NCBI RefSeq assembly: GCF_000018405.1
Contig: NC_009943.1
Location: 3,413,001-3,477,000 of the forward strand
Source: Desulfosudis oleivorans Hxd3
Lineage (GTDB): Bacteria; Desulfobacterota; Desulfobacteria; Desulfobacterales; Desulfosudaceae
Direction of reading: 5' to 3'
DNA: 64,000 nucleotides
Below are positions 48,555 through 56,181 of the stretch, one piece after another. Under the pieces are notes generated by a model that searched no databases, was not told the origin of the DNA, and worked only from the letters and a program-made list of their open reading frames with translations. Positions within the stretch are counted from its first letter, which is position 1. Each line of letters opens with the position of its first letter. The position numbers and the translations under genes are program-made.

Positions 48555-48634
48555 GGAAGTGGGTCGGCCTTTGACATAAAGTGGGTTCCAACAAAGGCAA
48601 GCAACTTACCAACCCATAAACAGGAGGCGTGAAC

Positions 48635-50281
48635 ATGTTTTGTTTTCAATGTCAGGAAACAGCCAAAAACCAGGGCTGTACAGTCAAGGGCGTGTGCGGC
48701 AAACCCGAAGAGACCGCCGATCTTCAGGACCTGCTGATTTACGTGTGCAAGGGGATCGCGATTTACGGTGAAGCGCTGAATGCCGCCGGCACTCTGGATC
48801 GCGAAGCGGCCCATTTCATCTGCCGCGCCCTGTTTACCACCATCACCAACGTGGCCTGGGATGATGACGTGCTCGTCGACCGGATCAAAGAAGGCCTGGC
48901 GGTGCGGGATGCCGTAAAGGCAAAGGCGGGAGAGGCCGTGTCCGGCTCGCTTCCCGACTGCGCCACCTGGGCATCGGAAGACAAGGCGGCCATCATGGCC
49001 AAGGCCCTGTCCGACGAGGTGCGCATCACCACCATGGCCAATGAAGACGTGCGCTCCTTGCGGGAGCTGCTGATCCTGGGGTGCAAAGGGGTCGCCGCCT
49101 ATACCGACCATGCCGCCATTCTGGGGTATGAAAAGGACGATATTTACGCCTTTCTCATGGAAGCCCTGGCCTCCACCACAAAAGAGCTTTCCGTGGACGA
49201 TATGATCGGCCTGGTGATGAAGGCCGGCGAAACCGCAGTGGCTGCCATGGCCCTTCTGGACGAGGCCAACACCGCCACCTACGGCCACCCGGAAATTACG
49301 GAAGTCAATATCGGCGTGGGCAAAAACCCCGGCATTCTGATCTCCGGCCATGACCTGAAAGACATGGAAGAGCTGCTCCGCCAGACCGAGGGCACGGGCG
49401 TGGATGTCTACACCCACGGTGAAATGCTGCCGGCCAACTACTACCCGGCTTTCAAGAAATACAGCCATTTTATCGGCAACTACGGCGGCTCCTGGTGGCA
49501 CCAGAACAAGGATTTTGAGTCCTTTAACGGCGCCATTCTTCTGACCACCAACTGCCTGATTCCCATTAAGGGCGACAACACCTACAAGGACCGGCTCTTT
49601 ACCACGGGCGTGGTCAACTATCCCGGCGCGGCCCACATCGGGGACCGGCCGGACGGCGGGGCCAAGGACTTTTCCCCGATTATTGAGCGGGCCAAAACGT
49701 GCGCGCCCCCCACGGAGATCGAAACCGGCACCATTGTGGGCGGGTTTGCCCACCACCAGGTTCTGGCCCTGGCCGACAAGGTCGTGGACGCGGTCAAGTC
49801 CGGCGCCATCAAACGGTTCGTGGTCATGGCCGGATGCGACGGCCGCATGAAGTCCAGAAGCTATTTTACCGAGGTGGCCGAAGCCCTGCCCAAGGACACG
49901 GTGATCCTCACCGCCGGGTGCGCAAAGTACCGGTACAACAAGCTGAACCTGGGGGACATCGGCGGCATTCCCCGGGTCCTGGACGCGGGCCAGTGCAACG
50001 ACTCCTACTCCCTGGCCGTCATCGCCCTGAAGCTCAAGGAGGTGTTCGGGCTGGCCGACATCAACGACCTGCCCATCTCCTACGACATCGCCTGGTACGA
50101 GCAGAAGGCCGTGGCCGTGCTGCTGGCCCTGCTTTTTCTGGGCGTCAAGGGCATTCGCCTGGGGCCCACCCTGCCGGCCTTTCTCTCACCCACCGTGGCC
50201 GGGGTCCTGGTGGACAAGTTCGACATCAAGCCCATCGGTACGGTTGCCGATGATGTGGCGGCCATGATGGCCGGCAAGTAA
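48635..50281 (+). CDS. hcp: Hydroxylamine reductase, hybrid cluster protein
   Basis: 548 residues from the ATG at 48635 (AGGAGG seven bases upstream); a GTG two codons earlier is less likely. The N-terminal cluster motif is [13 protein letters not shown]...GVCG, with spacing CxxC-x8-C-x5-C. Later cysteines for the hybrid cluster appear in [24 protein letters not shown] and [10 protein letters not shown]. It acts in nitric oxide or hydroxylamine defence. The nitrosative-stress operator just upstream supports this. Confidence 0.95.
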
Positions 50282-50830: not shown

Positions 50831-50901
50831 AACAGAAAAAAACAATCATTTTACGACGCGTGGGCAAGATTAAGCTTGCCCGCCTCGCCCCGATTTTTTT
50901 C

Positions 50902-50943
50902 TTGACACCGGTTGCCTGCATCGTTATATTCCAATTTAACGAT
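50902..50943 (+). promoter_or_regulatory. arsR: arsR promoter with overlapping operator
   Basis: TTGACA (50902-50907) and TATATT (50925-50930) with a 17-base spacer. A perfect inverted repeat ATCGTTA-N10-TAACGAT (50920-50943) overlaps the -10 box, the usual place for an ArsR operator, so autorepression is expected. Confidence 0.8.
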
Positions 50944-50955
50944 ATGGAGGCAGAC

Positions 50956-51360
50956 ATGAAATCATTTGTCAAAGTGACCAAGGCCCTGTCCGATCCCAAC
51001 CGGGTCAGGATGGTCAAACTGCTGCAACGCCGGGTTTTATGCGTATGTGAGATACAGGCGGCCCTTAGCCTGGCCCAGTCCACGGCCAGCAAGCACCTTA
51101 AAATCCTTGAAGAGGCCGGCCTGATCACCTGCGCCAAAGAGGGGCTCTGGGTCAACTACCGCCTGGCCGATGGAAGCGCGAATCCTTACGCGGCCAGCCT
51201 TCTGGGAAACCTGCGCCACTGGCTGGAAGAGGAGGCCGAAATTCAGACCCTGGTAAAAAAACTGCCCGCCATTCACCGTGAGCACATCTGCGGCCCAAAA
51301 CACTTCACTGATATATCGCCAAAAAACGAATTATTAGAACAGCCTGAACAAAGGGTCTAA
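50956..51360 (+). CDS. arsR: ArsR-family repressor
   Basis: 134 residues from the ATG at 50956 (GGAGG seven bases upstream). Winged helix: KALSDPNRVRMVKLLQRRVL, then CVCEIQAALSLAQSTASKHL as the recognition region. The CVC pair at the start of that helix is the arsenite-binding motif of classical ArsR. Its stop TAA ends exactly where family B copy B4 begins. It should repress the downstream arsenic genes until As(III) binds. Confidence 0.92.
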   Translation: MKSFVKVTKALSDPNRVRMVKLLQRRVLCVCEIQAALSLAQSTASKHLKILEEAGLITCAKEGLWVNYRLADGSANPYAASLLGNLRHWLEEEAEIQTLVKKLPAIHREHICGPKHFTDISPKNELLEQPEQRV

Positions 51361-51658: not shown

Positions 51659-52831
51659 ATGAAGGAACGAACCAAGCTGATGTGGATTGTCGCTGTTTTT
51701 GCCGGGGCCTATTATATTCCATGGACCCACCCGGTGGTCCGGCAGTCGGGCCTGGAGGCCTTTCTCATGCTCCAGGAGTATGCCCGGGAGCATGTACTCA
51801 CCTGCCTGATTCCGGCGTTTTTCATTGCCGGCGCCATTGCCGTGTTTGTGTCCCAGGCGTCGGTGCTGAAATACTTCGGAGCCAAGGCAAACAAAATTCT
51901 TTCCTACTCGGTGGCTTCGGTGTCTGGCACCATTCTGGCGGTCTGCTCCTGCACGGTGCTGCCCCTGTTTGCCGGAATCTATACCCGGGGGGCCGGCATC
52001 GGCCCGGCCACCGCGTTTCTCTATTCCGGCCCGGCCATCAACGTGCTGGCCATCACCCTCACCGCCAAAATCCTGGGCTGGCAACTGGGCCTGGCCCGGG
52101 CTGTGGGGGCCGTGATCTTTGCCATTATCACCGGCCTGCTCATGGCGTTTATCTTCCGCAAGGACGACGCGGCCCGAACCACCGGGCAGATTTATGTGCC
52201 TGAGGAGGGCGCCAGAGAACGCACCCTGCTGCAAGACGGCCTGTATATCGGCACCATGGTGCTGATTCTTATTTTTGCCGCCTTTGCCAAGCCGGCCCCC
52301 GGTGCCACCGGCCTGTGGCCCGCCATTTTCGCGGCCAAGTGGTATATCACCGTGGCCCTGCTGGTCATTCTGGGGTTCATGGTCAAGGCATGGTACACCA
52401 AAGAAGAGACCAAAAACTGGTTTGAGGCCACCTGGGACTTCATGAAGCAGATATTTCCCCTGCTGGCCGGCGGGGTCCTGGTGGCCGGCTTTCTGCTGGG
52501 ACGGCCCGGTCACCCGGCCCTGATTCCCGAGCAGTGGATCGCGTCGCTCCTGGGCGGAAACTCCCTGTCCGCCAACCTGATCGCGTCACTGGCCGGAGCC
52601 TTCATGTACTTTGCCACGCTCACAGAGGTGCCGATTATTCAGGGCCTGGTGGGGTCGGGCATGGGCCAGGGCCCGGCACTGGCCCTGCTGCTGGCCGGGC
52701 CGGCCCTGTCCCTGCCCAACATGCTGGTGATCGGCAGCGTACTGGGAATAAAAAAGACGGCGGTCTTCTGCGCCATTATCGTGGTCATGTCCACCATTGC
52801 CGGCATGGCCTACGGCGTGATGGCCGGCTGA
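51659..52831 (+). CDS. Permease, ArsP-like (DUF318)
   Basis: 390 residues with about 8-10 membrane helices. Motifs VLTCLIPAFFIAGAIAVFV, SGTILAVCSCTVLPLFAGI and YSGPAINVLAITLTAKI are characteristic of the family. ArsP exports trivalent organoarsenicals; other members act on other metals. Placement in an arsR-arsC-acr3 cluster supports an arsenic role. AGGAGG lies just before the ATG. Confidence 0.88.
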   Translation: MKERTKLMWIVAVFAGAYYIPWTHPVVRQSGLEAFLMLQEYAREHVLTCLIPAFFIAGAIAVFVSQASVLKYFGAKANKILSYSVASVSGTILAVCSCTVLPLFAGIYTRGAGIGPATAFLYSGPAINVLAITLTAKILGWQLGLARAVGAVIFAIITGLLMAFIFRKDDAARTTGQIYVPEEGARERTLLQDGLYIGTMVLILIFAAFAKPAPGATGLWPAIFAAKWYITVALLVILGFMVKAWYTKEETKNWFEATWDFMKQIFPLLAGGVLVAGFLLGRPGHPALIPEQWIASLLGGNSLSANLIASLAGAFMYFATLTEVPIIQGLVGSGMGQGPALALLLAGPALSLPNMLVIGSVLGIKKTAVFCAIIVVMSTIAGMAYGVMAG

Positions 52832-52866: not shown

Positions 52867-53100
52867 ATGGAAATCAAGGTGCTGGGTCCCGGCTGCGCAA
52901 AATGCCAGCAGGCTGAAAAAATTGTTAAAGAGGCCGTTGCCGAAGCAGGTGTGGCCGCCACCGTGGAAAAGGTCACCGACCTGATGAAAATCGCCGGATA
53001 CGGCGTGTTCGGCACACCCGCCGTGGTGGTGGACGGAGACGTCAAGTGCGTCGGCAAGATCCCCAAAAAAGAAGATGTTATTCAATGGCTGAAAAAGTAG
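52867..53100 (+). CDS. Small thioredoxin-like protein
   Basis: 77 residues. Redox site GCAKC (in VLGPGCAKCQQAEKIV), and FGTPAVVVDGDVKCVGKIP carries the cis-proline and an extra Cys. It belongs to the 'redox-active disulfide 2' type of small thioredoxins commonly paired with ArsP-like permeases. It probably supplies reducing power or metal handling for the permease. AAGG lies before the ATG. Confidence 0.9.
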   Translation: MEIKVLGPGCAKCQQAEKIVKEAVAEAGVAATVEKVTDLMKIAGYGVFGTPAVVVDGDVKCVGKIPKKEDVIQWLKK

Positions 53101-53109
53101 GAGAGTAGA

Positions 53110-53406
53110 ATGCCGGACGCATGTTGCACAGGCGACAATAACGTGAAGAATCTGGCCAAAAGTCCATTTACCGAGGATATCCGCCTGGCGCCGGAGGCAG
53201 AAACCGTGTGTTACTGTTCCAGGGTAACTAAGGCTGATATTCTGCGGGCCGTTGCCGCGGGGGCACGGTCCTTGGAAGACATAAAAACCGCCACCGGAGC
53301 CTGTACAAAAGGCCGGTGCCGGGAAACCAGCCCGAGAGGCAGGTGATGTTCACGGGAGATCCGCCTTCTCCTGGGCCAGGAGAACGACCGCATGAAGGAC
53401 CAATAA
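53110..53406 (+). CDS. 2Fe-2S (BFD/CopZ-like) selenoprotein, UGA read as Sec
   Basis: 98 residues if TGA at 53344-53346 is read as Sec. The first 78 residues hold the BFD-type 2Fe-2S signature: CYCSRVTKADILRAVAAGAR, then TGACTKGRC. The frame continues TSPRGR-U-CSREIRLLLGQEND and ends at TAA 53404, 9 bp before the next gene. In relatives this place is a Cys-Cys pair after PxGR, so Sec replaces a cysteine. A perfect 8-bp hairpin with GGC loop follows 19 bases after UGA. I recall a database family named for Csac_0668 described as a 2Fe-2S (seleno)protein that may match. It probably carries electrons in the arsenic cluster. Confidence 0.9.
53366..53384 (+). promoter_or_regulatory. Bacterial SECIS hairpin for the 2Fe-2S selenoprotein
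   Basis: UUCUCCUG and CAGGAGAA form eight perfect pairs around a GGC loop. The stem begins 19 bases past the UGA and G occupies the first two loop positions, as expected for SelB-binding bSECIS elements. Confidence 0.85.
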
Positions 53407-53415
53407 GGATGCAAA

Positions 53416-53937
53416 ATGTTGCTGGAAACATACCATCTGGAAATCTTTAATTCTGAATGCATGCCCGGCGCCATGGGGGTGCACTGTTTTGCCCACCTGG
53501 ACCAGGATGTGAGCGAAGCCCTGCCCTACCTGAACGCGGTCCTGGGCGGGGATGTGTATCTTTCGGACCCACCGTCGGTGACCTTCAAGGCCCAGGGCAA
53601 GCTGATCACGGTCAGTGGCCGGAAAATAGCGATCAACGCGCTCAAGGACGAAGCCGAGGCCGGAAAGCTGGTGGAATGGCTGAAAAACGAGATCAACCAG
53701 GCCTGGGAGAACCGGGCTGAGATCACCCCCTGTTACAAGGGCCGGGCAAAACCGCAACTGATCGAAATTTTGAAACTCTTGCCCAGGACCAACTGCAAGA
53801 AATGCGGCCAGCCCACCTGCATGGTGTTTGCCGCCCAGGTGATGGACGGCGGCCGGGGGCCGGACGACTGCCCGGAATTGAGCCAGAAAAATCGTGAAAA
53901 ACTTGGCGCATATCTCTCAGGATTTGATTTTGGATAG
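53416..53937 (+). CDS. Fe-S protein with C-terminal four-cysteine domain
   Basis: 173 residues. The first about 110 residues (LLETYHLEIFNSECMPGAM, SGRKIAINALKDEAEA) are of unknown fold. The C-terminal part LLPRTNCKKCGQPTCMVFA with a fourth Cys in DDCPEL is the small Fe-S domain found in corrinoid protein subunits and CODH accessory proteins. It sits between the selenoprotein and arsC with 9 and 18 bp gaps. Function in arsenic metabolism is unproven. Confidence 0.8.
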   Translation: MLLETYHLEIFNSECMPGAMGVHCFAHLDQDVSEALPYLNAVLGGDVYLSDPPSVTFKAQGKLITVSGRKIAINALKDEAEAGKLVEWLKNEINQAWENRAEITPCYKGRAKPQLIEILKLLPRTNCKKCGQPTCMVFAAQVMDGGRGPDDCPELSQKNREKLGAYLSGFDFG

Positions 53938-53955: not shown

Positions 53956-54393
<438 letters not shown>

Positions 54394-54408: not shown

Positions 54409-55599
54409 ATGAACGCAAAAGCCGACGACCGTAAGATGACAAGCCTGTTTGAGCGCTATCTGACCGTCTGGGTGTTCTTGTGCATTCTTGCCGGCATCGT
54501 GCTGGGAAAGGCGGCGCCGGGCGTGGCCCGTTACCTGGACGGGCTGGCCATTTATGTAAACGGCGCGCCGGTGGTGTCGATTCCCATTGCCGTCTGCCTC
54601 TTTTTCATGATGTACCCCATCATGGTAAAGATCGATTTTGCCTCGGTGGTCCGGGCCGGCAAAAGCGGCAAACCGGTGTTTCTGACCCTGTTTGTCAACT
54701 GGTGCGTCAAGCCCTTTACCATGTATGCCATTGCCTCCTTTTTCCTGGGCACCCTGTTTTACAACTTTATCGGCCCGGATGCCGTGGACCTGGTCAAGAT
54801 GCCCTTCGGCCTGGACCTGCCCGTGGGCGCGGCCCACGGCGCCGGCACGGTGGTGATGGTCGACGGCGTCAAGATGATGGAAGTTCCCCTCTGGCGCAGC
54901 TACCTGGCCGGCTGTATCCTGCTGGGCATCGCCCCCTGCACGGCCATGGTGCTGGTGTGGGGATTTCTTTCCAAAGGCAACGACGGCCTCACCCTGGTGA
55001 TGGTGGCCATCAACTCCCTTACCATGCTGGTGCTTTACGGCGTGCTGGGCGGCTTTCTGCTGGGTGTGGGAAAGCTGCCCGTGCCCTGGCAGGCGCTGCT
55101 GCTGTCCATCGGCATCTACGTGGCCCTGCCCCTGGTGGCCGGCTATTTTTCCCGCCGATGGGTCATATCCGCCAAAGGCGAAACCTGGTTTCAGGAAAAA
55201 TTTCTGCATGTGCTCACCCCTGTCACCATCACGGCCCTGCTGGCCACCCTGGTGCTGCTCTTCTCCTTTAAAGGCGATGTCATTGTTGAAAACCCCCTGA
55301 CCATTGTCTGGATCGCGGTTCCGCTGTTTATTCAGACCGTGCTGATTTTTGCCCTGGGTTACGGCCTGGCCCGGCTGTTTAAGCTGACTTACGAGGACGC
55401 GGCGCCAGCGGCCATGATCGGGGCCTCCAACCATTTCGAGGTGGCCATTGCCACGGCCACCATGCTGTTCGGCCTTTCGTCCGGCGCGGCCCTGGCCACG
55501 GTGGTGGGCGTGCTGATCGAGGTACCGGTGATGCTCATGCTGGTAAAAATCTGCCTGCGGACCCGGCACTGGTTTGATACCCAAAACCAAAAAGGGTAG
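54409..55599 (+). CDS. acr3: Arsenite efflux transporter, ACR3 family
   Basis: 396 residues, about ten membrane helices. [35 protein letters not shown] (conserved Cys of ACR3) and [20 protein letters not shown] are signature regions. It pumps As(OH)3 out of the cell. It follows arsC by 15 bp. Two hydrophobic stretches near the start ([15 protein letters not shown]) agree with the known topology. Confidence 0.93.
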
Positions 55600-55662: not shown

Positions 55663-56181
55663 GTGAGTGATGCCACCACAGACAGCACGATAAAACAGGC
55701 GCTCCGGCAGGGACTTTCCCTGCTGGTGATCGCCTGGGTCCTGGCCCTGGGCGTCAATGCGCTCCGGCCCGGCGGCATTCCCCTGGTGGCGGACTGGTCT
55801 CCGGCGGCCCGGCTTTCAGCCGCCACAGGGGAAAGCATGGTCATCCCCCTGGATGAAGCCGTGGTCCTGTATGACCGCAGGGAAGCGGTTTTTGTGGACG
55901 CCCGGCTGCCCGAGGAGTTTGCCGCGGGCCATATTCCGGGCGCCCTGAATGTTCCGTGGATACTGGTTGATGAATATGAAGAACAGTTTTTCACAACCGT
56001 GCCCGACCCGGAAACCATTGTGATCGTCTATTGTGATGGCGAGGCCTGCGCCTTGAGCGAAGACCTGGCCCGCATGCTGATCGACATGGGATATGTCCAT
56101 GTCAAAGTGCTGGCCGATGGCTGGGGGCAATGGACCCGCCATGGATACCCGGTGGAAAAAGAGGACCGCCATGGGTCATAA
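55663..56181 (+). CDS. Membrane-anchored rhodanese-like protein
   Basis: 172 residues from a GTG at 55663 (AAGGA upstream). One N-terminal helix (LLVIAWVLALGVNALRPGG) anchors it, with the rhodanese domain outside. AVFVDARLPEEFAAGHIPGA is the domain start, and the active loop is VIVYCDGEACALSE, with Cys at the catalytic place. It may move sulfur or handle thiols in the periplasm. The stop overlaps the CDF start by 11 bp. Confidence 0.85.
   Translation: MSDATTDSTIKQALRQGLSLLVIAWVLALGVNALRPGGIPLVADWSPAARLSAATGESMVIPLDEAVVLYDRREAVFVDARLPEEFAAGHIPGALNVPWILVDEYEEQFFTTVPDPETIVIVYCDGEACALSEDLARMLIDMGYVHVKVLADGWGQWTRHGYPVEKEDRHGS

Follow-up and report, generated by a model that had tools for sequence, protein, structure and literature searches.

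Two reviews (PMC13188914, PMC9312934) tabulate a '(2Fe-2S)-binding protein (copper chaperone CopZ family)' in two selenoprotein forms, and the first of them gives the motifs as GxUC for form 1 and CU for form 2. The accessible parts of both reviews give neither a function nor an arsenic neighbourhood for form 1. Among the matches listed in our literature search there was no title on this protein in arsenic operons, and CopZ, copper chaperone, 2Fe-2S and arsenic go unmentioned in PMC2398784, PMC5029168 and PMC12013277; in PMC2398784 'arsenate' occurs twice, in the table of families, as arsenate reductase.

The gene described here lies in a 64,000-nucleotide stretch of DNA from Desulfosudis oleivorans Hxd3 (hereafter the window; coordinates are window positions unless stated otherwise):

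53110..53406, + strand: predicted selenoprotein gene, 98 residues with Sec as the 79th, [2Fe-2S] domain of BFD/CopZ type (frame, Pfam Fer2_BFD, aligned homologues)
53344..53346, + strand: UGA codon, very probably read as selenocysteine (alignment of 34 sequences, the window among them: 21 U, 8 C, 5 other)

From the ATG at 53110 the frame runs for 78 codons to the in-frame UGA at 53344-53346, continues past it for 19 codons, CSREIRLLLGQENDRMKDQ, and ends at a TAA at 53404-53406, with 9 bp separating this TAA from the next gene's ATG at 53416; an earlier note on this DNA had described just such a UGA stop, in-frame continuation and 9-bp gap, and the coordinates agree. The motif GRUC at residues 77-80 fits GxUC, and both the kind of domain and the motif resemble those of the CopZ-family form 1 selenoprotein (record WP_245779778.1, cd10141), as judged from its published description. 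Because form 1 with GxUC is listed in the accessible parts of PMC13188914 and PMC9312934, the window gene belongs to an already known kind. What goes beyond the literature listed in our search is the arsenic link: gene neighbourhood connects a selenoprotein family listed without function in the parts of these reviews open to us to arsenic resistance.

A CopZ-like protein and its cysteines

With 31.5 bits, the 98-residue read-through product passes the Pfam cut-off of 26 bits set for Fer2_BFD (PF04324), one of its two Pfam matches up to E 0.1. Neither the zinc domain PF18423, which is present in a full Csac_0668 family member (L080), nor a heavy-metal domain was found in this search. Five NCBIfam models match, two of them CopZ-type, and one of these two is named putative metallochaperone. 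The best of the five, one of the two CopZ-type models, is NF045877, the Csac_0668 family 2Fe-2S cluster-binding (seleno)protein (form 2, CU), which aligns over model positions 98-153 of 161 and is also matched once in the whole genome, by the selenoprotein gene itself. Membership of this family was rejected, the score of 50 bits being far below the cut-off of 190; by the motif given in the accessible part of PMC13188914, the Csac_0668 family has Sec second in the CC pair, whereas the window protein has it first.

The closest solved sequence is the N-terminal domain of Archaeoglobus fulgidus CopZ (2hu9, E 1.8e-5). In the alignment the UGA falls on the first C of its CC, so that 2hu9 has Cys and not Sec at this place; it also has Gly in place of C65, and 67 residues precede the matched part. 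Bacterioferritin-associated ferredoxin (Bfd) has the same CxC start, and its sequence alignment covers only residues 33-72 of the query, with the Sec-bearing tail outside. An AlphaFold2 model built from a 10-row alignment with Cys substituted for Sec (mean pLDDT 75.4, pTM 0.59) was compared with solved structures using Foldseek. Bfd (6e6s) was the first match (E 0.041) and has the same fold, and CopZ 2hu9 gave TMq 0.52, rmsd 1.7 and E 0.10; the probability was 1.00 for both, at E-values from 0.04 to 0.1.

Homologues were gathered in several searches. A search of genome contigs returned three loci, with UGA at this site in two and CC in one; the two UGA relatives that have names come from metagenome assemblies, one under the label Proteobacteria and one under Deltaproteobacteria. 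A protein search of 58 genomes matched 12 at 1e-3, mostly weakly, with one TGA in 5 of 15 matches. With a 4-row alignment as query, 18 of 395 genomes of the phylum matched at 1e-8 (one TGA in 13 of 21 matches) and 8 of 389 genomes of the class at 1e-12 (one TGA in six of eight), the window's own genome being counted in all three sets. A second draw from the phylum, from another centre, gave no new match. Plasmids yielded just two records, distant ones from Bacillota with Cys in each; none of the genes annotated near the first is an arsenic gene, and the surroundings of the second carry no annotation.

The resulting alignment holds 34 sequences including the window, of which 21 have UGA, 16 in a main group and five in a second subgroup. 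C70 and C80 are present in all 34 and C34 and C36 in all 33 that cover them, the one gap being L066, whose match begins downstream of the CxC start. Column 79 has U in 21, C in eight, Q in two and G, S and T once each; a lack of homologues with Cys or Sec at the UGA, which the earlier note would have taken as a refutation, was not observed. C65 is found in all 16 main-group UGA members, in three of the eight Cys members and in none of the five others.

On this pattern C34, C36, C70 and C80 are probably the cluster ligands. The CopZ structure is in keeping with this assignment. The best reading of Sec79 is that it would sit beside the cluster ligands and not among them, because column 79 varies outside the UGA group while column 80 does not. 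The earlier suggestion that Sec replaces one of the family's C-terminal cysteines therefore stands in part: Cys does occupy the column in eight of the 34 sequences, but it is not one of the four invariant cysteines.

The second UGA subgroup (L071, L073, L074, L075 and L076) has a different middle part and ends in CRC-x-NPKGR-U-C or close to it. Whether it has a counterpart of C65 depends on the alignment, two alignments differing on this point. The one member scanned, L076, scores higher with NF047645 (55.3 bits) than with NF045877 (28.5 bits).

The arsenic setting and a possible role

The selenoprotein gene stands within a run of genes on the same strand, several of which belong to arsenic-related families:

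50860..51360, + strand: ArsR/SmtB-type metalloregulator, start uncertain (NF033788, 86.9 bits versus cut-off 55)
51659..52831, + strand: ArsP_1-family permease, substrate not settled (PF03773, 260.5 bits; sub-threshold matches to the SO_0444 Cu/Zn and SaoE models)
52867..53100, + strand: ArsE/MTH895-family thioredoxin-like protein (TIGR00412, 102.1 bits versus cut-off 62)
53416..53937, + strand: 173-aa protein, PF04060 Fe-S domain at its C-terminal end (Pfam)
53956..54393, + strand: ArsC, thioredoxin-type arsenate reductase family (TIGR02691, 158.2 bits, under cut-off 174.3; PF01451, 71 bits)
54409..55599, + strand: ACR3 arsenite efflux transporter (TIGR00832, 377.1 bits versus cut-off 282.8)

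The gene had been placed between a thioredoxin and arsC, and a thioredoxin-like gene does lie directly upstream, but the 173-aa Fe-S protein intervenes on the other side and arsC starts only at 53956. Downstream of ACR3 follow genes for a rhodanese, a cation efflux protein and a MauE/DoxX protein, a thioredoxin-like frame (recognised by eye) and a DsbD/CcdA-like gene. The best NCBIfam match of the rhodanese-domain protein (55663-56181) is the selenoprotein TsoB model, at 53.6 bits versus a cut-off of 805. Upstream of the arsenic genes, at 48629-50281, there is a prismane/hybrid-cluster protein (PF03063, 583 bits).

We searched the loci of the relatives by tblastn at 1e-5, using as queries the window proteins and a DGC protein from L010. 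The loci range from 4.1 to 12.2 kb, the shortest, L088, being a 4.1-kb contig that has the gene at one end. An ArsC, ACR3 or ArsP-like gene was found at 12 of the 15 other main-group UGA loci, at two of the five loci of the second UGA subgroup and at none of six non-UGA loci (L065, L068, L069, L070, L088 and L011; L024, L029, L050, L055, L056, L080 and L081 were left out). Fisher's test on 12/15 versus 0/6 gives 0.0015, a value that overstates the certainty because the loci are related and unequal in length. Counted gene by gene over these 15 main-group loci, the thioredoxin was matched at 13, an ArsP-like gene at 11, ArsC at nine, and ACR3 and the Fe-S protein at seven each. As a negative control, 16 loci of the window's own genome (L001-L008 and L012-L019; 3-5 kb, shorter than most of those tested) gave no match to an arsenic query at 1e-4. 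Relatives with the UGA tend to occupy arsenic clusters too. Some of the ArsP-like matches are split; no in-frame UGA was seen inside the permease frames read for L063, L064, L066, L071 and L076, the reading for L059 being partly out of frame.

Other genes recur beside the selenoprotein gene. A DGC-domain (PF08859) protein is encoded upstream of it at seven of the 15 other main-group loci (L010:3682-4110, L009, L057, L060, L066, L072 and L086); in the window there is no room for such a gene between the thioredoxin and the selenoprotein. Multihaem cytochromes that look similar by eye lie nearby at L009:7431-8333, L010:7063-8070 and L087:1439-2386.

In the role that we favour, and consider rather probable, the protein would serve the arsenic system as a small [2Fe-2S] redox partner whose reactive group is Sec79; both the redox function and the partner are inferred. 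The product would belong with BFD and the CopZ N-terminal domain, as a small [2Fe-2S] protein that stands alone, its cluster held by C34, C36, C70 and C80. Sec79, adjoining the ligand C80, would not be taken up by the cluster and would act as a fast selenol, with C65 as a possible partner, and electrons might pass from the cluster to the selenol and on to the thioredoxin-like protein and ArsC, inside the arsenic-resistance unit. The earlier note had guessed at a reductant of the arsenic system; it stays a guess, but a better founded one, because the arsenic neighbourhood is common to relatives.

The main rival is a carrier of As(III) or another soft metal in place of a reductant: Sec79, with C80 or C65, would bind As(III) and pass it to ACR3 or the ArsP-like permease, much as CopZ carries copper. 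The CopZ-type models among the NCBIfam matches (two of five, with the best match and the putative metallochaperone among them) fit such a role, as does the presence of both efflux permeases in the same cluster, and the part of PMC13188914, a review of 2026, available to us notes that Sec may be a metal ligand in some selenoproteins (SaoB, SaoC, UXX-star). The Pfam search, however, found neither the PF18423 zinc domain nor a heavy-metal domain in the window protein, and we regard the carrier as a possibility on the unlikely side. Carrier and redox roles are not mutually exclusive.

A further explanation is that the arsenic setting is incidental, the protein being a redox selenoprotein of general function, located in a metal-stress island together with the arsenic genes but without an arsenic role. 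At L087, where both UGA and hairpin are present, none of the queries was matched within 6 kb (12.2-kb locus); ArsC, ACR3 and ArsP are missing from L060 and L072, short contig pieces of 7.2 and 4.9 kb on which the DGC and Fe-S proteins are present; and three of the five second-subgroup loci lack all three arsenic genes. Against this stands the contrast between main-group loci, 12 of 15 with at least one arsenic gene, and non-UGA loci, none of six, which makes a purely incidental setting improbable.

Beyond the redox partner that we favour, a bolder proposal can be put forward only tentatively: the Sec79-Cys65 pair by the cluster might bind or reduce arsenic species directly, the protein being a regular member of the arsenic operon and resistance depending on selenium. 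If the reading of an arsenic role is right, arsenic resistance in these bacteria would be selenium-dependent and the protein would be a natural example of a selenol right beside a [2Fe-2S] ligand. It is the shared arsenic setting that is of interest here, as it makes a role of selenium in arsenic handling testable.

Decoding of the UGA codon

These proposals presuppose that the UGA is read as Sec. In the part of PMC13188914 accessible to us, the bacterial SECIS is modelled as a stem-loop after the UGA with an apical loop of 3-9 nt, 16-37 nt away, and G in the first two loop positions. The window has a candidate:

53366..53384, + strand: bacterial SECIS-like hairpin, 8 bp, GGC loop (pairing, centroid structure, synonymous recoding, alignment)

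This hairpin, TTCTCCTG-GGC-CAGGAGAA, begins 19 nt past the UGA, where the earlier note had placed it. Its 3-nt GGC loop, 27 nt past the UGA on an 8-bp stem, conforms to the bacterial model, as that note had also supposed. It is the centroid structure of the folded 51-nt stretch. Counting both strands, the window has 2044 TGA triplets, and 27 of them, this one included, are followed by a hairpin that scores as high and has its loop at a distance of 15-36 nt; 0.39% of 20,000 synonymous recodings of the window tail reach the observed hairpin score. The folding energy of the whole 51-nt stretch is ordinary (z 0.10; 92 of 200 shuffles as low).

The recoding test was extended to relatives with 2,000 recodings each, codon usage being taken from seven window genes for all loci and L074, L075, L086 and L087 being left out. 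The hairpin is kept in most of the relatives examined: fewer than 5% of recodings are as good in 10 of 14 main-group members, among them L067, where the hairpin has another loop and lies nearer the UGA; the proportion is 5-10% in three more and 33% in L059. In three members of the second subgroup the hairpin is unremarkable (26-68% of recodings reach the score). Four non-UGA homologues gave 88, 25, 77 and 2%, the last being the strong hairpin of L070. Minimum free energy does not separate the UGA members, since none of 13 main-group relatives is at or below 5% of recodings and the non-UGA L069 and L070 are.

Alignment A2, which covers the main group except for L067, L086 and L087 (13 of 16 members), points in the same direction without the covariation being decisive. 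In it 90.4% of cells pair, a figure equalled by one of 500 shuffles. Double changes occur at three of the eight pairs (reached by 52 of 500 shuffles) and in seven cells (reached by none of 500); for two of the five structure measures, 52 and 79 of the 500 shuffles do as well. Covariation alone is indecisive because the structure slid by -1 scores as well (0.250 versus 0.252 slid).

The tail itself offers separate evidence. Over the 11 codons past the UGA, pairwise differences among 13 main-group members affect 44% of third codon positions, against 14% of first and 12% of second ones; judged by this pattern, the tail is under coding constraint, as in translated sequence. General recoding of TGA is ruled out, because TGA is the normal stop of four of the neighbouring genes checked, those for ArsP, CDF, MauE/DoxX and the CcdA-like protein.

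The genome to which the window belongs, a single contig of 3.94 Mb, was searched for the machinery of Sec insertion. SelA, SelB and SelD are each represented by one match over cut-off, and there are two tRNA-Sec genes, at genome positions 2690342-2690435 (L012) and 3561047-3561140 (L013), which score 75.1 and 54.7 bits versus a gathering score of 47; ARAGORN types both of them as tRNA-SeC, anticodon tca. The selA, selB, selC and selD that the earlier note had proposed to look for are thus accounted for, and a genome without SelA or SelB is excluded. At the UGA, the ribosome would place Sec with the help of SelB and tRNA-Sec, guided by the hairpin 19 nt downstream.

Taken together, the frame, the hairpin, the Sec machinery, the aligned UGA/Cys column and the constraint on the tail make it very probable that this is a genuine selenoprotein gene, and we infer that Sec is inserted here in the cell. 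It is highly improbable that translation simply ends at the UGA and leaves the tail unmade: TGA does terminate neighbouring genes and the folding energy of the whole stretch is unremarkable, but the tail is kept as protein in 16 main-group members, homologues with Cys at the UGA column exist, the hairpin is mostly kept and the Sec machinery is complete, and a true stop with a dead tail is rejected on the codon-position constraint, the alignment and the hairpin tests.

The SelD match (genome positions 3893407-3894333; L078) has an in-frame TGA inside it, so SelD is probably itself a selenoprotein.
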